From: Tubiluchus corallicola
Lineage: Eukaryota; Priapulida; Priapulimorpha; Priapulimorphida; Tubiluchidae
NCBI GenBank assembly: GCA_030141605.1
Contig: JAQGDQ010000049.1
Coordinates: 434,001-498,000 of the forward strand
DNA length: 64,000 nucleotides
Reading direction: 5' to 3'
Positions within the stretch are counted from its first letter, which is position 1. The number at the start of each line of letters is the position of its first letter. The position numbers and the translations under genes were made by a program. Positions 35,301 to 60,230 of the stretch are shown piece after piece. The notes below the pieces were generated by a model. It ran no database searches. It was not told the DNA's origin and saw only the letters and a list, made by a program, of their open reading frames with translations.

Positions 35301-38300
35301 AATTTTATGCAGGGGCGAGTGTCGTCATATTACTCACACTATGACGACTTTTGACAACACTATTTGGAAATTATATACTCAAGAATTTAGGAAGCTAGTT
35401 CACATTAACAAGATTAGTACATTGTTTTTAACGTCTATACGTCTCACGAATTAGTGGAAATTACTAATAACTTCAAAGTTGCCGTATTAAAGTACCATTA
35501 TGAGCAGTTAGACTTTCTGGTGGTGTGGTGATTACGACGACGACGACGACGACGACGACGATTATGATGATGATGGTGGTGGTGCTGATGATAATGATGA
35601 AGACAAGTATTTAGTACAGCTTTCATTTGCAGGCTGCAGTGGAATGTACATAAGGTGACTATAATAGACTAAGCTAAATATCAATCAGAAACTTAACTGA
35701 TTATAGGCTCTGGACATCATGTGATGTGATGTGACGTCACATGTCATGTGATGAGGTGACGCGTGACGCGATGTATTTATTTTTTATTAGGACGTTCAAA
35801 AATTTTATCAATATTTTAATTTTAAAATTGCACCAGTAGTAACGATATTTTCGCAAAAATTCTTGTGTTTATAAAATAAATTGTTTATAAAACAATGTTT
35901 GTAAAACAGTCTTGCAGGTTATAACTTTGCTAAGCTATTTGTAAAATAACAACTAAATTATTCAACAGAATTACCCATTAAATGATTTTGCGAACTATAT
36001 TCGTTCGTTCGTTCGTTCGTTCGTTCATTCCTTGACTGATTCATTGATTCATTAAGAAGTCCGCTTTTTAGTGACGAATATCGCAATTGTCTAATTGATG
36101 TATAAGGCTAAGTCTGTAATAACAAATGCATTCTTTCATGTGTGCATTATAGCCAGGTCGCTTTTATTTATATTGTAGACTTCGTGGCTAATTCATAGAA
36201 TACTGCCTGCAGCTACTCTGAAACACTGTGTAGTTATGAGCAATGTAAGTTCTTGAATAGTGTAACGTGCAAATGAAGCCGCCCGCCATTAACATGACAA
36301 GAAAGCCGCTTTCTTTATACTGTCTCATTATTGTAACGTTAGCAGAAGATTTTCCCACGCAAGTTTTACAAATTTGAGTAAATGCATTGGTAAAGCGGCG
36401 TTGCAATGGTTCTCACATGTTTAATCAAATTTTAATACTCTGTCTTTGTTTGATTGAAAATCTAGATTCTAGATTAGTCGGGTGAGGCCTTTGTAAGTGC
36501 ATTCTGAAATAATTCTGCTTGCCTTTAATTTTCCGTTTAAGTTGGGATAATAAAAAGAACGTCAGTGACTATAAGACTGCTATAATAAGATTTAGTACAA
36601 GTATAGTGTACTAATACATTTTCAATAATTTTGTTTATTTCTTTGCTTTAGTCTGAAAAATTTCATTGCTTTGGTTTATCAGTACAGTGTGTCAGTGAAT
36701 TCAAAATTGCAGGAAGCTAGTAACTTACAATACCATAGTAGATGAGTGTGTATACTAACTAAACTTTAGTAAATAAATTACTAAAGTTTACAATTCCCCA
36801 CACACAAGAAATTAGTTAGTGAAACGGGTTAGGGTTAGCTTTGGAGTTAGGGTTAGGATTAGGGGTAGTGTATTTAAATTGTATTGGGAATTGTAAACTC
36901 CTTCCAATTGATGATACTAAGTGAGGACATATTTAATCGGGCGGAGTCATGTGACTGTGATCATACTTATTTGCATTAAATTGATTTTTGAAGTTAGTTC
37001 AAAAAGATAAATATAAATAATATAAATATAATGTTTATTCATCGAAGCTGCTCTTACCTTTTTATATAAGCGTGAAAGTTGCATGTTGCTACTGTGGATA
37101 AGTGTGCGTTTGTTTGAAGGAGTTCATGCATGATAATAAGCGCGCATACTACAAATTTCGAATTAATTGGTGAGGCAGAAACGTTTTATTTCGAATTCCA
37201 ATCCTTTTTTCTATCACTTGTGTAGAAAACACTTTACGGCCTTTCCCTTTTTACAATGTTTTCCCATTTTTGTAATTTTAAACGAACCCCATCAGTGCTT
37301 CTGCGTAAAAACTCTGTGTATACAGTTAATCGATCTCTTCAATATCAGAAACACTGCCATTCTATTATACACAGATCAGAAAAATGGATACTTTTATCTA
37401 AACGTTGGCGCTTTGGAAATTATAAATGGATTTTGCAATGTAAACAAAGCGAGAAAATTTCCCAATTTAGTCGTCTTGGTCTATTGAAGTTTACTGAAAA
37501 GCCTGGAGGCTGTCGAAAGCTCGCTGGAGAACTGTGCTGTTGTGTGTTGAAATCAATGAATCTGTCAAATTCGTTCTACTATAACCTTTTACTGGTGGTG
37601 TTTTCGCCGTGTGTTTTGTAATTTTTTAGAATTGTTGCTGGGTGGATATTTTCCATGCTTTTTGCGTTGCAGAAAAAATTTTGTTTTCCAACGCGTTTAT
37701 TACTTTCTTTGATTTACTTTTGATTTCCTTATTTGATTTTCTTTATTTTTTCCTCGCCACGATTCTGAATAACTCGAAAACCAGAGTTCCTAGAGCTACC
37801 AACGTTGCAGGGGAGATACCTGGCTCTGGGTAGGGGCTCAAACAATGGTATAGTGTTTGATCTCGGGTCGAAATTTGAAGGACACTGGACATCGGTCAGT
37901 CTTGCGTTTAATACTAAGCTCCCACTAGTTAGTTTATTTTCGTTTTAGAACGTTGTAATTTTACATCTATATTTCCGGATAGTAAGATTTTCAGGGAAAA
38001 GTTTAACTCTAAGTAAAGTGTTTTTGCAGAATAAATGTAATTATTGACTTTTTCGTGTATTTTAGTAACATGGCTATTACTGTAGCTAAAATATGGTCAT
38101 AAACAATCAACAAATGAAGCGTTTTTCATTTGTCTCTCAAGATGTAATCAGTAGAAATTTTTATAGAAGCTTACAGTTGCACAATTGCACTGCATTTTAG
38201 CACACCACAAACACTTGTGTATGTTACCTAGCAACTATTGTACATGTGTACGCTCATTTTTGAAAACCAATGGCAAGAGGAATTACGCAATTCATTTTGC

Positions 38301-41300
38301 AACCTTTGAATTTTGTAGCATCTAGCTACTCTATTTATGTTATTTTTGTTCTGAACGTGAGTGAATAATCTTGTAAATACCTTTATTTTTATGAAACAAA
38401 CAAATTGGCCAAATAAATGTATTTGATTCGTTGCAGTATTTCACTTTTTTCACTAATAAAATTTGGCGTGTGTGTAGTAAAATTAGAGGCAAAGAAGTCA
38501 CAGACTGCCAACTTTTTGTCAGTTTGTCTTCCGTTTGAACTGATTTGTGCTGCTTCTGCCATCTGTCGACAAGTTGACAAAATACTTACTAGCTCATGTT
38601 GCACTGTTGTCTTTTTTGTCATTCAAATGTAAAGTATATGTGATGTGCTTATAGTTGCGATAAATTAGATTATCAACATATAACTTAACATTTATTTCTA
38701 AAATTTGTGTAACACGAAATATAAATTAAATTAAAATAATCTACGTGTAAACAATATCTGTTGCAGACGGTGGTATTATGAAATAAATATGAATTAGAAA
38801 CATAACAGATTTTGTTTTAACTCTTTAGGCGAGAAGCCCATCTGAAATGGCTCTAAACACCCAGGAAGCCACAAGACAACAGCGTGAATTGATCATGCAG
38901 CTGGAAGCTAAGAATAGGTACGTAACTATCAATTAGTGATTGCTAAAATGCTTTTTGGCCAACCCCCGCTGCAGGGTGTTGTGGGCCTACCGCAAATTCT
39001 AAATATGCCTACTAAATCCACCGTTGAATGGGCTATTCAACCATTACCCGCACTGCCCCGGCACGTTCTGTTCTCCAGAAATAAAAGGCATAAGTTTTGT
39101 GGGCAAAAATATGGACAAAAATGCCCCTGTTCCTCCCATGTGGCTTGCTTCGAAAAGTAAATCATCAGTGCGACGACATTAGATCGAGACCTTTCGCAGA
39201 TCACCCGGAATGGTGCTATCCTTATAGCTGTAACCTCGAATTTTTATACATATGTCCAGATACAGCTGAAATTAATTGTAAGATGATTATTAAAACAGAC
39301 GAAACTAATTTTGTTGTAACTGTATTGTACATATCCCGACTGTAGTAAGCATTTGAACCTCTTGGGGTGGTTGTGAGTTCGATTCCACGACTGGTATTAC
39401 TAAAAATTTCGAACAGTAGTATCTATTTTTTCACTGAAATGCATAAAGCACTAGGAATATCAGGACAGAACCAGGGCAATAACAGTGGCTGTCCCCACAA
39501 TTACCAATATTTTTGCCCAAATAAGGCTAGGCTAACCATGTCTCCCATGAGTGATGGTAGTATTTTTGCAAAGTGTGGTTGTTATCCAATGCAAAGAACT
39601 AACCACACCGTAAAAGCACTTGCACGGGTCATTTTACATATTATATAACCAATTGCTGTTGGAAAAGTGTATGTATGGTTAGTATTTAGTATTTTACATG
39701 ACTGAATAGTAATCCCCCGAATTTTGAGTTAGATGAAATCGTCTGCGTGCTTTTATGGAAAATGGTACATTACAAAACAGTTATGCAACTAAAAGTTTGA
39801 GCCCAGATTGCAAGGTTTAATTGCACAATTTTTAGTTGCATATATCTGCAAGCTCTCATAGACTTTGCATTTCGTTCTCATAGTTACAATTATCAATTCT
39901 TCACTTTGATAATAACAACTGATTAATTGGTAAATTGTTATCAGTGTATGTGATCTATTCTCAATAAAATTTTAGACATATTTAAAGCTGAAAATTCTTC
40001 CTAGTAGTTTAAGTAATCATTTTTGTAATGGATGATGCACAAACATATTATCATTATCGTCGTGCTTCAATAGCAGGACTTTTTTGTGTCTGGGAGTCCA
40101 TTGTACAGTTATACTCGTGAGAGAAACCTTACAGAAGCGCAAGCTGGTGTTACAACTAATAGGCCTGCTTTTTAATAGAGAAACCTATTCAGCTTTATAA
40201 GTATGTAACTAAAGCTAATTGGAATCAAGAGTCTCTTTAAAATAAATGATATATTATGTAGAGGAATCTGAAGATGAAAAATATTCATATCATTCTAGGG
40301 AGATAATGCGCGAAATTCAGCGGTTAAAGAAGGAACAAGAACTAGCAGCGAATGAGCAGTCAGTCTCTGGTCATAACCCGACTTTAATGGCTGAATTGCG
40401 GTTGCTGCGGCAACGGAAGGATGAGCTCGAGATGCGAATGGGGGCACTGCAAGAGAGCCGTCGAGAGCTGATGGTGCAATTAGAGGGTCTGATGAAAATG
40501 TTAAAGGTTTGTTGATTACAAAAACATATTCAGTATGCAGTATTTAAGTACTGACGCTTAAACACGTATTATTGGTTATGTGCAGCTGACGATCATTTTT
40601 TTTTAATGTAGGAGCTTAACAGTGTGGCCTTCATTTTTCATTTGGCTTTGTAAAAAACTAATTGACGTTTTGACAGGATTAACTTCAGAAATTAGGAATT
40701 TCCGTAATACAATAATTCAGTGATACAGTATTGCAACTTTTCATTTATTTTCAGTTTTGCTGCTTGTTCCAGTAATAACAGAAAAGCTGTAGTTTTTATC
40801 TTTGACCACTGACAGACCACCTGTTTTTGTCATTCAACATGAATTTAATTGAGGCAAATTGAAAATGCGTTAGCTACATTTAGTCAGCCGACTTTCAAGA
40901 TTTTTGCAAAATTGTGGATGTTGAATTTATGCAGTAATACAAATGAGTAGTAAAATTAAAAAGTCGTTAGAAATTTTGTCAACAGTTTCGTTTGGCAGGC
41001 TACAAAATGCTGAGTGTGTGAGTGTCCTTTCAAAATGCTAAAAGCATCAATGTCCTTCAAAGTCACTTTGCTTTAGTGACTTAATGAACAACTACAATTT
41101 CTAGAAAATGACGGAGGTATAGATTAACTGGCAGTTATCAATTCTTTCCTGATTTGGGCTGCTCCTCTATCTAGCTGGCTTCATTCTAGTGAGGTCCCCT
41201 TCCTGTAGCTGGAGCCACTAGGATGTTCCCTGTGTATGTATAGGAATTTGCAAGAGTTAATGGTTAATCAATACATGTCTGAGCATTAGTCTTGGGAGGT

Positions 41301-44300
41301 GATTTGTTCTTGTGTCTTCATAGCATTGCTGAACGTCAGGATACGAGGTTTACAGTGAGACTGCAACTATTCATTATGCCTGGTATTCTTAAGGTTAGTG
41401 ATAATAGGTGCACTTTTAAGGCTAGACTAGCTAACAACAGATAATTCAGTTATTGCTTAAGGTTGGTTTTGATGTGAAATGATTCGATAAAGTATGAAAA
41501 AAAAAAGATATCATATTTCATTGCCTTTAAAATCTGTGATAATTAATAAATTGTGTTACATTCTTTTTTAAACCTGGTATAAGTAATTAAATTAAATTAA
41601 AAATGTGTGACATCGAATTTTATTTTATTCCTCAAAGTTAATGATAAGTACTAAACCTCTTAAATAGTTAATAAGATAGAGCTTTTAGTTAATAAATATT
41701 TTTAGGAATGTGTAGTGTATTGTAAAGCCAGTATTTTAGGTACTGATGTATTGAAAATTCATTTGGTTGCTTCTATAATTTATAAAAACAATTTGCAATG
41801 TTGTGTTATGTGCAAGGTAGAGTATAATTGTTTATATCTTTGGTCTGCTAATGTTGTGCTGTCTTTGACTACCTTTAAAGCTTTGAAGGCTATGAATTTT
41901 TGAGACAGTTAAATTTTGTTTACTCAGCCTGTGACTGGTGAGATCGGAGTATTTTTTTAGATTCGTTCATATTTCTTTCTTTTATGTGCATGGTCTTTAG
42001 GTCTATAAATAGATTTTTGGAAGTAATTTGCATGTTAAAGGATATTTAAAACAAGAAAAGCAAACAAAAACAATTTAGATTTTTGATCAAAAATCTCATT
42101 GTCTTTCATTTATTTATTTATTTGGCTAAAGTGCACAATTCCCCACAAGAAATTAGTTTATGAAGTGAATTAGGGTTAGAGTTAGGGTTAGTGTTAGGAT
42201 AGGATTAGAGTTTGGGTTTTGGTTAGGGCTGGGGCTAGGGTTAGGGTATTTAAATTGTGCGGGAAATTGTTAACTCCTTCCATTTATTTATTTGGTGATT
42301 TGGTCTTGCACATTTACGGTCTTCGATTTGTCGATTTGCAGTCTTCATATGCCTCTCCTGCCTTCTTAAATTTTATTCGTGTACCTTTTCATCCCGTCAC
42401 TGAGTACTAAAAGGTTTTCTCTCCCAGGTAAATATTTATTACATCGCTGCCTTAACACTTTTCAAGGAGCCAGGAAGTAATAAAAACACACAGATGCATT
42501 AAAATATCAAATGTCATTCATATACCCTAGAGCTAAAAGCATTGTACGTGGACGGCATGCAAATATTACAATTGTGTGACAGTCTGTCATTTTTGTTTTC
42601 TTTTTCTGTCGCCTCAGCCGCCTGTTTGTATGTATATTGCATAGCTTGAAATGTCCATTTGTCTAATACAGGACAGCTCTTTTCCCAAGGGGTATACCCG
42701 TGAATTACCTTAAATGCATAATTTATTGGTAGTAATGTAGTTAAGTTAGAGCTGTATGTTTTGGACTCTTTATACGTTCATACATTCTCCCACGTGTTCT
42801 GTGAAAGAAGCTGTAAATGTTTAATTTCTAATCACTTTGCGATAAGCTGTTTTGCTGAAGTATTGCATAGAAATTGGCATGTTATAGCTTTTGTCATTGA
42901 ACTCTGTTATAGGTCGCTGTTTTGTAAAATGTAGTGGCAAAATGTGTGGATAGATATATTTAGCATATCAGATTAGCTCCGTTATTTCGACAGCTAGGTC
43001 ATAAATTACATAAAATACATGCACAATTACGAGTATATTACAATGATAATTGATGTCTAATATAATGTCAATCATTTTCGTTGACTGCCCAATCAACGTG
43101 CAAGTTATTTCACACACCCCTGCAGCAGGTACGTTCGGGACATTTAGCTACAGCTCCGTCTATTACTGTTATGAAAAATGCTCAACTTTTCATTAGTTAG
43201 CGGGAGAAATATTGGCTTGGTTCTAGATCTTATTATTGTCAATGGAACTTGCAAGCGAATTAGTGGAAATATATAGTCTAGTTTCGTTTATAGGAAGAAA
43301 TGCACAACACTTACGTCTATGAGTTGCTGATCAAACCATTTTGCAATCAAGAAAATACGCAGTTTAATTTAGTTTATGGCTTTGCAAGTTAGATAAAAAC
43401 AACTATTTGATTAACTTTAAATAAGGACAAAACAAAATGTTTTCTTTTCTGGCCAGTTTTTACAAACCTCAATGAGATCTTCACTGTCAAAATTAATTCG
43501 AATGCGATCAAATCTTATATTATACATCAATGTAATATTGGCTAATTTTACGCTATTTTTATGGTTATAATCAACGTTAAAAGAAGCTATTTGGACTTGT
43601 GTAACTCGGGCATTCAATATAAGGTTCGTCTATGGAATAGAACAGTCAAATTTATTCCATTTCTGTAGCCTAACAAACAGAAAAATACAAAAACTGAATA
43701 AATCCTGCAGACGAGCATATGATCAATTAATATAGAAAAAAATACATTGCAGGCATGATGTTCGTATGTTTAAAGGCAAGAGAGGCTTGATATTTCTGTT
43801 GCTCATTTATTGTAGAGCAAGACTAACTAGCTTAATTTCTTTATTATACTTGTGTCTCTATATTTTGTAGTGCTTTAAAACTTCGTCTCTACTTTCTGTT
43901 TAAATTGAAAAGTCATTTTTTGGCTACTTGAAGTGATAGTTTCATGTAAAAATAACCGCTGCTCTGGAAATTTGTTTATGAAAAAGTGCAATCAGTTTAT
44001 CTGCTGATTAGACATTAGTTGTGACTGTCATGTTGTTTAGTTTAGTTTAGCTTAGCTTAGACAGTTGTTGTCCAGCGCGAGCTGTTGTCACGAAAGCTGC
44101 TGAGTGTGCATACATTGCAGTGGGGGCGGAGCGATAGACCAATATGTTTGACATCATTTACATTAATTAACTATGCAGTTACATCGTTAAAACACTAATA
44201 GACAATATGTACATGGTGGTTCATAACCTTTTGTTAGTGTGGTACAAAGACAACAAGTACTAGTACAAAACAGTTTATTACATTAAAGTATTACTGAAAC

Positions 44301-47300
44301 AATTGTGAATTTATCATGCATGTCAGAATTTAGTACGAAAGTCTCAGGTGTCTTGCATAACCTGGTATCTTGAAGGTACATTTGGAGGTGCGACTTGCAA
44401 ATTCTCTGATATTTGACTCGATTGAACTGAATGGCATAAAAATTCACCAGACCTCAACCCACCAAGCACACTGGAACTACCCCTAGGACAAAATGCTTGC
44501 TTAGATGATTCAAGAAAATACCTTGGATCAGTATTAAAAGAAACAAGTTCCCGAGACATCTGCAGTATAGTTGGATGATGAATCCTGCGAGTCACTGCTG
44601 TGATCATACCCCTCAAGATTACAGGCCACGTGAGACACCCAAGCCTTCCACACTAAATTTTGATGATACGATAGGTTCACAATTGTTTCATAAATATTTT
44701 GAGGTAATAAATTATTCTGTACTGTACTCATTACTTCTGTACCTGCCTAGCAAAAGGTTATATGTACCACTTTGTATAAACGATGTCAAAATTTCTGGAT
44801 GATCAAGCAATTTATTGTGAATGACAAACGCATGATATGAACACTCAGATGAGTTTTACAATCAAATATTACATAACCGAAATCAAACAACCAACATGAT
44901 AATTTTGCCTCACTACTTTTCTAGAAGTTCTGCCTATGTTGACGAATCTCAGTGAAAAATGCCTTTTTGAGAGGTACTCGTTGCAGCAATGATTACAAAG
45001 GTTTTCAGGTCAGGTCGTATTGACTGCACACTTTACTGAATCTGCTGACACTAATTAATGACCGGCCAATGCGTTGCAAGGATTAGTCACTCCATTACTT
45101 TCATTGATGAGAAATCGATGTTCTAATTGGCTTCACACCAGATAGTTTGAAGCCACCTGTTTAATCCCTGATTAACGAGCTTTGCAAATTGTGTATCATC
45201 ATCATCATCATGATCACAGTGTTACTTGCTAGATGGACTGTTGCCCTGTTTATGAACTGCTGCATATTCAGGTCAATCAAGTCTCTTCCCTTTAAGGGAT
45301 GAATTGTTTGATAGATGGAATCCACGCTGGAGATTTGTCAGACTATCGTTCTACCCTTTTCCGGCATTGTAACTTTCACATTATTATCACTTTGTGTTTG
45401 GATTGCCTAATTCTTCTTTTATGAAAACGTGATAATTTTTCCACAAACTCCATGGTTTCTTCTGAGCACTTGCAATAACTGCCTTTATAACTTATAAATG
45501 CTTCTATAATTTTGCAATTTTTAGTCAATAAATTAAGGCACATGTTTATATTTCTTAAGAATGTTTATTGCACTAATGTTACCATCTACAAAATATGCTT
45601 ATAGCAGGGCTGCCCTTAACCCAACTGGACCAATTTCTCCCAATCAGGCCCTGCGCTTCGGAGAGTAGAGTGTCAGTTTTTTTGCGCGCACAACACAATA
45701 CGTTGCAAAGATCGATCGCTGCTAGTTTTTTGCTATCAGTTATTTCAGTTATTATTCTCATGAGTTTTAAAATCTTCTGCAGGTATTATGTAAGCAATCT
45801 AAAAGATAATTTCTAAATTTACCTAGCGGAGGCAGTTCAACTATACATATCACTATTGTTACTGTTTTGCTTAATCCGAGGTATGTAGTTCTATTTCGCC
45901 TGTATTTACAAAGTGTCTGGATAGTTATTTTAATTAAGAGTACATATAATAGAGCACTTGATCTTTACATTAATTGCGCTTATTTGCGAATTTTTAACTG
46001 TATAGTATCTACAAGTCTAATATAGTTCAAAAGACAAAAGCAAAAATAAATGTCTGAAAGCTCTTAAATATCTATAAGTCTGTGAAATCTATAGAATGTT
46101 TAATAGTATAACGTAGTAACATTACTATACTGTATCGTAGTGCACATTCATGTCTTAATTGCAAACTGTGACATAGGCTATATTCAGACAGAATCAAACT
46201 CAAGTCTGAAGTCCAGGGTGTCTGCAAAGTCTTTACTATTTCAAAAATTCACTAAACATGTCGTAACGTAGATAAATCAATTAATCAACTACCTATTAAA
46301 GCTTCACTGCTTTGTTAAGATTACCTTGGCCGATTCGGTTGATTCAGAAAATTTCAGTAAATATGATTTAGACAATTTTTAGAAAACCGTTCACTTGTAT
46401 TTGCATTTTTAGAATAAAAAATGACATTTTTTAGCAAATTATTTCGCTGTCATTAATACAGATAATGTTGTAAAAAGTGCAATACCGTCTCAGTGATTAC
46501 CCCACAGGTTTTATTTGCTACTTATCGACGTACGTACATCACGTGCGGTTTTTGTAGCTGGTCCATCATCTACACTGCACTTTTTGCTCACACATTTTAA
46601 CTGCTTTCCATTTTGTCATAGAAATATAAAATCCAGAATAGTATATTTTTACGATTCTGCAGACACTAGCTGAGAACCTTGGGCGAATCAAAATTGTTTC
46701 CAGTCGAATCTGTAGAGTACCACACCTCCTAAGGCTAGCTGTGGCTCATAGACCTGCTAACAACAGAAATAGTAAACAGAAAAAAGAGTATTTTGTCTTA
46801 CTTTTCCTGTTCAGTTAACGACTTCTGTCACAAATGTCACTTGCAATAAAGTCATTTCTCTGCATTCTGTTTTTAATCCCACGCCACTGGGCATCGTGGG
46901 TAATATCAGCAACGAAAACGTCTATTATACTCTATCTTCCTCCTGCTGGGGATATTAACGAGTTCTGGCATGACATTTGCTAGCTGGATGAGTTTTTTAC
47001 TGCCACGCACGCACTTGATGCTGTTTTATTATTCGTTGCTTTTTCTTTTAATGTCTTTCAACTCTCCTCTGCACATTCAGGGTGATATTAAGGTTTAGAG
47101 TTCTGCAGAATAAGCTCCAAAAACTTGCTAACTTATTGATAAAAAACTTTCTCAATTTTGGTCTGGATATGCTGAGGTCCCAGTGACGTGATGTGTCAGC
47201 AATCTACACTCTTATGGGGAGCACAGAACAAGTAACTAGGAGCTTTTGATTCTTAGCGAACAAGAATTTTTCCCCGGCTGCAGTATTGTAATAGTTCTTC

Positions 47301-50300
47301 ATTGACAGAATTATTAATTTACTTAATGGTGTTTGTCATGCAACAATTGGTGCAATGTATTTTAAAAATGGCTAAACTAAGCCTGAGTTTAACTATTACA
47401 ACTAGATGTTATTTGGCTAAAGTTTACAATTCCCACACACAAGAAATTAGTTCGTGAAGCGGGTTAGGGTTGGGGCTAGGTTTAGGGTTAAGGCTGGGTT
47501 AGGCTTAGGGTATTTAAGTCGTGTGGGAAATTGTAAACTCCTTCCCATTATTTTTGAACAGTCATTTATGGGCTGCAGCTTTTAATATATATGAGCTTAG
47601 TCTTCAAATTTGAGGTGAATATTTAAATTTAACTGAAAGTGAAAATCTGATGGATTTCTAAGAAGAAAACAACTTTTACTAAAACTTTAATTTACAAAAT
47701 GTTAAAAAACATGTCTCCAAACGTTTCGACTGCAGCCTGCGTACAGAATGCTGTGAGTGCCCGTACAAATTGACTGATGGATTTACTTAGAATGTAAGTA
47801 TCTTTGGACCCTGTATGGCTGTGTTATTTCACTGTGATACTGTTTCGGTCACCCTTCCAAAAACAGCTGCAGGAAACATTGCTTAACTATTAATATGAGT
47901 TTAGTTTTGCTTTTCTGTTTACTGAGTTCACTGTGGTGAATCTTAACAGAGATTAATTGTGCACGTTGTTAAATCTGCCAAATCGACCGCTTAATGCGAC
48001 CGTTTGGGGTTAGAAAACAAATTAATCTTGAAAACTTACCATATAGCCACATTTTATAGGCACTGCTAAATGGATGATCGCAGTAATCTTTCCTCTTTCT
48101 GGCACCATCAATCATTCTTTATAGGGGATTATGAGTTTAGATTTATATGAAGGGAAAACTAGTTATGCAACATACGTGGTAGATAGTATACTTACTTATT
48201 TAAAAACCACGAGTTTCTTTAATAAAATGAACCCATTGTTGACAAATGTTAAATTAATTAGTGTGAAATCTTCTGGTTTCAATCTTGTTAATTAATTTCG
48301 TCTTTTATTGCAGAACTTTATTTTGGCGCATGATTAAAAAAGAGCAGTTAATTTAGCATTGCATCATGATTATTTTCATAATACATAAAATAAACATATA
48401 CAGAGTAAAACTATAAGCAAAATAACACTAGTGGGTGACATTAGCCATTTAAAAGTCAGCTTTCATTTTATTTTTTCCAGAACATCGTGTTACAAATGTT
48501 GGAACATAATAATTACAATAATGGTTCATTTTGTCATACAAATTAAGTGCAAAAAGAATATTTAATCGAAAAAACAAAGACAGTGTGTCATAAATGCCAC
48601 ATTGCATTTGATTTCAGTGTACTTAATAGTATAAGATAGCCTCTAGATGTGGGTTATTTAAGGGCGAGGAATTTTTTTCTGTTACATGAACTTGCTTAAA
48701 ATTATTGAATTAGAAATTTGGCTGTCTAGGTATAACGTATATGTAAAGTAAGATATAGAGAAGGTATTTAAGGTATTTATTTGGGCCAGGAAGAAAGCAA
48801 ACAAGGAGCTTATAGTAAAATTGAATTAAAATAACAGAATTTGTTTTATATTTTATTTTATATGGTCTTAATCTTGTTGCTTAAATTCATAAGAAGAGCA
48901 GAAGTGTAATAATACTGTTAACTGAACAGTATTACTACAGCTAGACTAGATGGCAATTTAGAACCTCTGATTGCTTAAGAATCATTCTGACATGCTTCAC
49001 AGCGCCTAATTAAATAACTTGGCTTCTTTTGCCTACCCTTACATACATGCACAAAAGCTTGAAGCCAGCCCTCAATGGATTCGTTGATCTTTGAGGATGC
49101 ATTGGAATGTAACCGTGTATGTTCGTGCATGTCACTAATTGATTTTCTACATTCCAGCGCAACTTGACATTGCCTCCCAGGAAGCTAGTTTAATCTCATC
49201 ACTCCATTTTTGTCTTCTTTTTTCTCATTTTGCTGGTGGTTTGTTTGGCTTCTTGGTACAGTATAGGCACGTCTGTGTGCCTGTGTGTGTGTGGGTTTGT
49301 AAGCAACCAAGTAATTTCAGTACAAAAATCAATAGGGTTACAAACCTTTTTGTTGTAAGTCTTTCCACGGTTGCGTTGATTACTTGTTTCAGTTGAAAAG
49401 GGCTGAAATCTCGTTCACCTGAGAAGAAATTTTGATTACTGTAAAAGAAATTAAACAAACAAAATTATTGATTTTAATATTTCCTCGGTAAATTTACTTA
49501 ACTGATAATTGTTTATTGAATATTTGACTTGCCAATGAATTTAGAAAAGATTGTAGGTCGTAGGGAAGTTTGTTGGTTTTCATCCATAGTGTAAGGTGCT
49601 ATGCCCACAGAATTGATGGTGATGTTGCAGCAACAAGCAACAACTATTATGGCATTGGAATTTGGAACGTTTTGAATTGTTTGTATTGGTTTGTATGTTT
49701 GTTGAGAGAGAGTCTGAAAAATTGAAAGGAAAACAATCCCCAAATAACTGAATTAAGTTCAATTAGCAGACACCAGGCAAACTTCACTATAAAAGAGAAA
49801 TGCAATTATGTGTGAGAAAACTGTACATATATGACTGCAAAGAATACTTTGTCATCATTGTCATCATCATCATCATCATCATCATTATCATCATGAAAGT
49901 ACAAGCAGTGGACGTGACCGTCACACTTGTGAAGTCGTTTATTTCTTGTCAAGTCAAGTAATAGCAACATAACATCACTGTTCGTTTCTTTATAAGTTGA
50001 TGCTAGCATGTTCACTAGTATATATTTGCATAATTATCACTTTTTCTATGCTTGTATACATTGATAGGACGTATTCAGAAGCACATTTGCCCATAAAGGA
50101 TTGCTGTGTTGCACTTGCTTTTCAGCGAATCATTATTAATTTGTTTGGCGAGAATGTCTGCCTCTCAAACAAGAAACCTTCAGTTCAAATCCTGGCTGAG
50201 GAACAATTTTCTTCCTTTTGCATCAATTGCCAGTTATGCCGCCTTCTCAAAATTCATGTCATTATTAATTACATGTTGAACAAGCCTAGATAACGTCAAA

Positions 50301-58473: not shown

Positions 58474-60230
58474 CTGTACGCAGATAAAATTTTTCAATTA
58501 CCGTATATACTCGCATATAAGCCGAATTTAGAACTATAAAATACAATACTGAAATCAGGTGGTCGGCTTATATGCGCATGAAACAAAATGAACACAAGGA
58601 CAGGCACTAATGCCAATTTTCCAGCCACACATTTTCATAGCTATCTGACTCTTTATTTGGTTGTGTGTCACCAGTGGCGTATTGGAGGGGGATCGCCGTC
58701 CACCCACTTTTTTTTTAGAAAAAATTCACATTTCAATAAATGTCTGCTTTTTGTATTCATTAGATAAAAAATATTAAAAATGTATACGGGTTTAATATTA
58801 AATCTACTTGTTTTCATTTTTTCAAAAAACGGTTTTAAATAATGTCAATTTCTTTCAAATTTGTGAATGTAAAATGGTAAGTCTTGAGACTAGCCGTCCA
58901 CCTACTTTTTATTTAGCAATACACCACTGTGTGTCACCAGTTGCGAGCCGTAACCAAGCTACAGCTAGTGGTGAAGCCGACGTCATCAGCCAATTGGTAG
59001 GCAGCGCGTGGGGAGACGAGGGTCACGTGGCTTATAGAGGAACATATTGGTGTACACGTTTTCTGAACAGACACTCTATAAGTTTGAGACAGAGAACGAA
59101 AATTGCACAAAAATTGCCATCACAATATGAACATAAACTTTTGGGTTTTCAAAAGTATGTTATTGATCAAAGAAAGGTTGGTGGTGACTTCCCTCTCTGC
59201 AGAATTGGCAACATGGATGAGACAAGTTGATGGTCGGCTTATATACGGGTTTTTGCAAAAACTGGCCATTTTAAAGCAGTTTTAGGGGGTCGGCTTATAT
59301 GCGATGTAGGCTTATATGCGAGTATATACGGTATTCATAATTTTCACAGTTCAAAACTTTTTGAATGTACATAACAATAATTACGAAAAGTGCACGGTTA
59401 CAAAGAACTTTCATTATTAAACGGATTAAATTTGTATTGCATTCTACAGGCATCTTTCTTAGTTATCGCAGATTGTATTATCTAGCAGAGTGTCACACCT
59501 GATAGTGCATCCTTCATCAAAATATTGTCTTTACTGGTTATTGTAAAAAAAGTATGGAGTTGCTGGCAGTGCCCGTTTCATCTCTTTTGCATAAAATAAA
59601 AATCAACTATTCTGATTAAATAATTTGTAGATGCCATAGAGGAATTAAGGTGATTTAGTAAAATTCATTTAGTGTATCAATTAGAATTTGTTCAGATTAG
59701 ATCTTTTTTATTTACATTGTTTAACCTTCATTTTTTTCTATTTTTTGTTGCAGCTGAATGGGTCAATAAATGAGATGAAAATAAACTGTTAGACCTCATT
59801 CAATTTTTCCTGCAAAAAACGTAACACAGATAATCATGTATTAATTCTTCAAGACTTCAAAGAACTAGCTAACCAGTCTATGTTGAAAAATGAAAAATTT
59901 AAATGATAATCTTAACGTAATTTATCAAAATTTATCATGCCTACATAAGAAATAGGCATTGAGCTATAACGCATCATTGTCTATGTCTGAAGTTTTGTAG
60001 AATACGGTGACAAAAGTGTGTTTACTGCAGTGTTGTTGAATTAACTGAAGCCAGTGAAACCTTCATATGCAAACTGGAACAGACAAAATTTGAACTGGCA
60101 ACTTACCTGTTTCACATTTGCTTTGCACTGCTGCTAGGCGAAAGTCAGACTACACAAATCAAACAAAAGTTATATTAATAACAAAAGGGCATGATAAGAA
60201 TTCAATTCAACTAATACACACACACATGCA

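Follow-up and report, generated by a model that had tools for sequence, protein, structure and literature searches.

A dispersed MITE family with a TTAGGG-like core in the priapulid Tubiluchus corallicola

An internal TTAGGG array is commonly taken to be the scar of a chromosome fusion or of break repair. A stretch of 64,000 nucleotides from the genome of Tubiluchus corallicola, referred to below as the window, contains three short elements within 11 kb in which a TTAGGG-like array lies between inverted ends, and this raises the question of whether such arrays can also be dispersed as part of a mobile element. The original prediction regarded the three as copies of a MITE. Our analysis leads to the same reading: very probably, they belong to one MITE family that has spread by transposition and carries its TTAGGG core as a passenger.

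Structure of the three window copies

Every part described in the original prediction was found in place, although the true boundaries, fixed by the genome-wide 8-bp target duplications described below, are a few bases wider than those given. All three elements lie on the + strand. Copy 1 (36779..36905; 127 bp) has a mutated left terminus, TACTAAAG in place of GGCTAAAG, and a core of about 7 units (36826..36868); its flanks agree at 4/8 positions, so that no clear target duplication is seen. Copy 2 (42124..42281; 158 bp) runs from GGCTAAAG to CTCCTTCC, contains a core of about 13 units (42170..42247) and is flanked on both sides by ATTTATTT (42116..42123 and 42282..42289), an 8/8 duplication that sits in an ATTT repeat and is weak if taken alone. 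Copy 3 (47415..47545; 131 bp) has a core of about 9 units (47461..47511) and is flanked by TGTTATTT (47407..47414) and CATTATTT (47546..47553), which match at 6/8 positions.

The same layout is present in each copy: a variant of GGCTAAAGTTTACAATTCCCCACACACAAGAAATTAGTTCGTGAAGCGGATTAG, the TTAGGG-like array, and a variant of GGGTATTTAAATTGTGTGGGGAATTGTAAACTCCTTCC. The inverted pair of AGTTTACAATTCCC is found at 36785/36886 in copy 1 (both perfect), at 42130/42262 in copy 2 (two mismatches each) and at 47421/47526 in copy 3 (none and one mismatch, respectively). AAGAAATTAGTT has one mismatch-free occurrence in each element and none elsewhere in the window, and the word that follows the core reads GTATTTAAATTGT in copies 1 and 2 and GTATTTAAGTCGT in copy 3. 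Words resembling TTAGGGTTAGGG number 20 in the window versus 2.1 expected, nearly all of them within the three cores. Hence, the inverted ends, the shared internal word and the excess of TTAGGG all proved to exceed chance.

The near-equal spacing of the copies might have reflected a 5.3-kb tandem duplication. This was rejected, since the intervening 5.2-kb segments are without similarity to each other. The whole element does not fold into a hairpin better than shuffled sequence does (z -0.5), and searches of the window against Rfam, and of eight of its open reading frames against Pfam, returned no match. Two minor features of the window were seen as well. In the left flank of copy 1 (36760-36790), the first bases of the left end recur in inverted form (TAAACTTTAGTAA...TTACTAAAGTTTA), and a local palindrome of 31 bp spans the left boundary of this copy. 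An open reading frame at 58802-59230, which ends in GNMDETS, resembles by eye a fragment of a pogo/Tigger-type transposase; it gave no Pfam match at 0.01.

Inverted ends, target duplications and the putative transposase

We searched the entire assembly (343.5 Mb; 2344 contigs) for further copies. The 19-base internal word CAAGAAATTAGTTNRTGAA has 255 exact matches, and the left end (37 bases; up to three mismatches) has 370, while the reversed control gave none in either case; the family is thus dispersed far above chance. The single orientation noted in the original prediction holds for the three window copies but is not a property of the family, as 129 of the 255 matches are forward and 126 reverse. 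Among the first 100 listed matches, neighbours less than 20 kb apart had the same orientation in 6/6 pairs (one pair being a tandem array), and pairs separated by 20-60 kb were mixed in this respect. The shared orientation of close neighbours may be due to chance; the flanks of two pairs that we compared are unrelated. One inverted duplication was noticed on contig C1977, where near-identical copies with a longer core (positions 37705 and 48693; L123, L124) lie 11 kb apart in opposite orientation and with matching flanks.

From the overlap of the left-word and exact right-end lists, taken over contigs present in both, we estimate a family total of roughly 1,000-1,300 copies, a rough figure that derives from three shared copies and is not a count. 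Most copies are 100-200 bp in length and hence too short to code. Of the 370 left ends, 20 are exact and 66 carry one mismatch, a ratio expected if the 37 bases contain about 3.3 mismatches on average, in agreement with the arm divergence of about 9% that we measured. We used the exact left 37-mer set to find young copies, but their right arms were still diverged and no recent burst was detected in this set. The family looks old and now apparently inactive, because the divergence of its arms is approximately 8-9% and fresh copies were not encountered.

In each copy, a TTAGGG-like core lies between subterminal arms that are constant, and its orientation relative to them is fixed. The inverted ends (left, GGCTAAAGTTTACAATTCCCCACACA; right, GGAAGGAGTTTACAATTCCCCACACA) are imperfect, about 26 bp long and of the form GG....AGTTTACAATTCCCCACACA, with mismatches at positions 3-6. 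To examine the flanks, we set the element boundaries at GGCTAAAG and CTCCTTCC and compared 51 non-identical loci. The identity of the 8-bp flanks amounted to 0.723, versus a shuffled mean of 0.362 (shuffled maximum 0.426), and perfect 8-bp duplications were present at 12 of the 51 loci where 0.27 were expected; duplication lengths of 4-7 and 9-12 bp gave no comparable signal at these loci. Examples are CAAAATTT (L016), GAAGATTC (L100), GCCAATTA (L072), ATAACACA (L078) and TCAAATTA (L110), and additional perfect or near duplications were found at newly fetched loci. The targets are A+T-rich (nAAWWTTn), with a preference for A at positions 2 and 3 and for T at positions 6 and 7; 35/64 targets have A and 14/64 have T at position 2, and 44/64 have T and 15/64 have A at position 7. 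Most copies were picked through an anchor in the left arm, which inflates the identity of that arm; statistics on the right arm and on the duplications are independent of this anchor, apart from the need for a recognizable right end.

Duplications of 8 bp are the mark of a cut-and-paste transposase. Their presence at the flanks therefore identifies the family as a MITE-type non-autonomous DNA transposon and not as plain interstitial telomere repeats, a classification with which the inverted ends, the hundreds of dispersed copies and the lack of coding capacity agree. Genomic copies without inverted ends were looked for, and none was found for the TTAGGG-core family. Insertion accompanied by target duplication is thus directly visible, and from the ends and the duplications we infer the enzyme: a transposase acting in trans would recognize the inverted ends of about 26 bp, cut out the element, insert it at an A+T-rich 8-bp target and thereby duplicate that target.

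Which superfamily would provide this transposase is a sub-question of the explanation that we favor. Tc1/mariner elements do not make 8-bp duplications. The 8-bp duplications of hAT elements show an nTnnnnAn preference; the bias in our duplications is the opposite one, with A at position 2 and T at position 7, and speaks against this superfamily. A tentative case, only slightly short of an even one, can be made for a Merlin-superfamily (IS1016-like) transposase, which would make the family a Merlin MITE. Merlin elements have 5'-GG ends, terminal inverted repeats (TIRs) from 24 bp up that are sometimes quite imperfect, and duplications of 8-9 bp (PMC8101967), and the family described here shares the GG ends, the imperfect TIRs and the 8-bp duplications. 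Furthermore, the genome contains seven matches to the Merlin-type transposase domain PF12762, four of them in open frames of 146-363 codons. However, matching ends were found at 0/7 of these loci when about 1.1-1.5 kb was searched on each side, and the end alignment scores there (8-11) equal those of shuffled sequence, versus 21-24 for a true copy. A search for longer relatives with a TIR pattern followed by a different next base, intended to exclude the MITE interior, gave 28 matches; none of the 16 that we read was autonomous, and nearly all were ordinary copies of the TTAGGG-core MITE. Judged by sequence, the ends are Merlin-like and membership in Merlin is putative. The autonomous partner may have been lost, may be unassembled or may come from another superfamily.

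At two loci (L118, C393:16740-17210; L139) the left inverted end is directly adjoined by a 71-bp minisatellite of at least 5.7 units that are 97% alike, and no right end was recognized downstream. Its unit contains ATTCCCCACACAG of the inverted end, and the array looks like tandem growth from the inverted end itself.

Composition and variation of the core

Among 51 usable copies, TTAGGG aligned to the core with a better score than TTAGG, TTAGGC, TTGGGG, TTTAGGG or TTAGGGG, and core identity to TTAGGG was 0.837 in comparison with 0.641 for shuffled cores. Whichever junction the units are counted from, the consensus unit is TTAGGG, and TTAGGA is a frequent variant. The unit TTAGG was rejected: it scores below TTAGGG, its reversed control is high, and the TTAGG array that we read sits among other 5-mer repeats. 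That stretch (L059; C2:401617-404646) is a curiosity in its own right, in which successive arrays of TCTAG, TCCAG, CCAAT and CCTAA slide from unit to unit and which includes about 38 units of TTAGG.

A core is found in nearly every copy read, its G-rich strand always pointing the same way relative to the arms, and its junctions (GCGGATTAGG... and ...GGGTATTTAAATTG) are constant. Because orientation and junctions do not vary, we infer a single capture: a founder element would have acquired a TTAGGG array once, in one orientation, between fixed arms. Core length ranges from 7 to 1027 bp (median 70 bp; 51 usable copies), in keeping with the predicted variable core between kept ends.

Per-copy divergence of the core is 16-18% in comparison with 8-9% in the arms (right arm, 8.7% from its own consensus). 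Right-arm divergence is uncorrelated with the divergence of the core (0.18; rho about -0.03) and with core length (rho about -0.04), and much of the core divergence and length therefore probably predates insertion. Variant units follow an order that is nearly specific to the individual copy; sharing of this order between copies exceeds that of unit-shuffled cores only slightly (0.018; s.e. 0.003). These data suggest that source elements already differed in the length and purity of their arrays, and that slippage or unequal exchange went on altering them; faster mutation of the array, as opposed to inheritance, could in part explain why its divergence is twice that of the arms. The array would then have been carried along as a passenger, with most length shifts occurring in source elements before insertion, and would occasionally have grown to about 1 kb and become degenerate.

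Several copies with ordinary ends have cores of only a few units (L014, L010, L018, L105 and L108). In L014 the core measures about 7 bp, yet the target duplication is 7/8, and a long core is consequently not needed for movement. Since even copies with one or two units moved, the core looks like a passenger. The original prediction had also considered movement by copying of a telomere-like minisatellite, and this our data do not support: such short copies share the ends and can be flanked by a target duplication, and the evidence for movement lies entirely in the ends.

Could the core nevertheless have a function, for instance by binding telomere proteins or by forming G-quadruplexes that aid transposition or targeting, and be kept for that reason? 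Its presence in nearly every copy read and the constant direction of its G-rich strand would be accounted for, but we consider this unlikely, given that L014 moved with almost no core and that a divergence twice that of the arms is the reverse of constraint. We hold it improbable, too, that the core is repeatedly renewed, by telomere copying or core-specific repair, and that the family spreads through telomere-binding proteins or G-quadruplexes, the core not being a passenger. If it were so, the family would carry telomere sequence around the genome as a mobile vector and shape the sites of chromosome breakage and fusion. The family also makes available, in parallel, about a thousand copies of a single short telomere-type array that differ in length, which should be useful for measuring the growth and decay of such arrays away from telomerase.

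Internal TTAGGG arrays in the assembly

Perfect (TTAGGG)6 occurs at 14 separate places in the assembly, none of them a terminal array at a contig end, and 9/14 lie inside the MITE family. Seven have at least one recognizable MITE arm (on contigs C44, C92, C666, C804, C1043, C1220 and C1564), and the arrays on C2105 and C2125 are copies of the C44 element with an identical core and, in all three, the left end 578 bases before the array. Two cores, on C44 and C92, have grown to about 1 kb between recognizable arms; L039 and L041 are loci with long cores in such a setting. On C229, a 98-bp unit made up of the left arm and part of the core has grown into a short tandem array. Of the long internal TTAGGG arrays in the assembly, most (9/14) have thus been seeded by dispersal of the MITE, as has one small satellite, and the suggestion that such elements could seed interstitial telomere repeats is borne out. 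The remaining five places, without MITE arms, are on C850, C1672 (twice, within a unit shared with C850), C1553 and C2136.

Could the family as a whole be nothing but plain interstitial telomere repeats, inserted by telomerase or repair at breaks and merely lying beside common sequence? Some arrays of this kind do exist, namely the pure TTAGGG runs without arms on C850 and C1672 (twice). However, the arms and junctions of the family are fixed, the core has one orientation relative to the arms, and the 8-bp duplications lie outside the arms and not outside the array, a result of the target-duplication test that contradicts such an origin and renders it very improbable. Helitrons lack terminal inverted repeats and insert without duplicating their target. 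For a family with both TIRs and 8-bp duplications, a Helitron-type element of the DINE-1/HINE sort, with tandem repeats in its center, is scarcely credible, even though derivatives of Helitrons often hold central tandem arrays (PMC9659126).

MITEs with tandem repeats are known, such as Xstir and miDNA4 of Xenopus, the (GTCY)n elements of Lepidoptera and cases in bivalves (PMC9659126; PMC6947457). Like the family described here, Xstir on its MITE and miDNA4 feature an internal array of variable length that can become satellite-like; in contrast, their repeat unit is not the telomere hexamer as far as the description goes (PMC9659126), and miDNA4 is assigned to Tc1/mariner. The hitchhiking (GTCY)n of lepidopteran MITEs is likewise a short repeat that a mobile element carries along (cited in PMC9659126), but it is a tetranucleotide beside the 5' inverted repeat and not a TTAGGG core. 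With interstitial telomeric sequences the family shares TTAGGG arrays away from chromosome ends; it differs from them in that most of the long arrays are within a transposon that has fixed arms and is flanked by target duplications. No MITE whose core is a telomere hexamer turned up in the open-access literature, and within that literature this feature may be new. ATREP18 is a telomere-repeat element of Arabidopsis; no paper on it was found in the open-access literature.

In this genome most of the longest internal TTAGGG arrays ride inside a transposon, and in this lineage arrays should therefore be checked for MITE arms before they are used as marks of chromosome fusion.

The unit shared by C1672 and C850 was observed in two settings. 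On C1672 (49.4 kb; L130, L131), inverted copies of it are situated about 1.8 kb inside the two ends, both with a pure TTAGGG array that faces outward, and on C850 (L056) the unit is internal and adjoins a tandem satellite of about 118 bp. Subtelomeric DNA is one possible explanation, a palindromic artefact of the assembly another.
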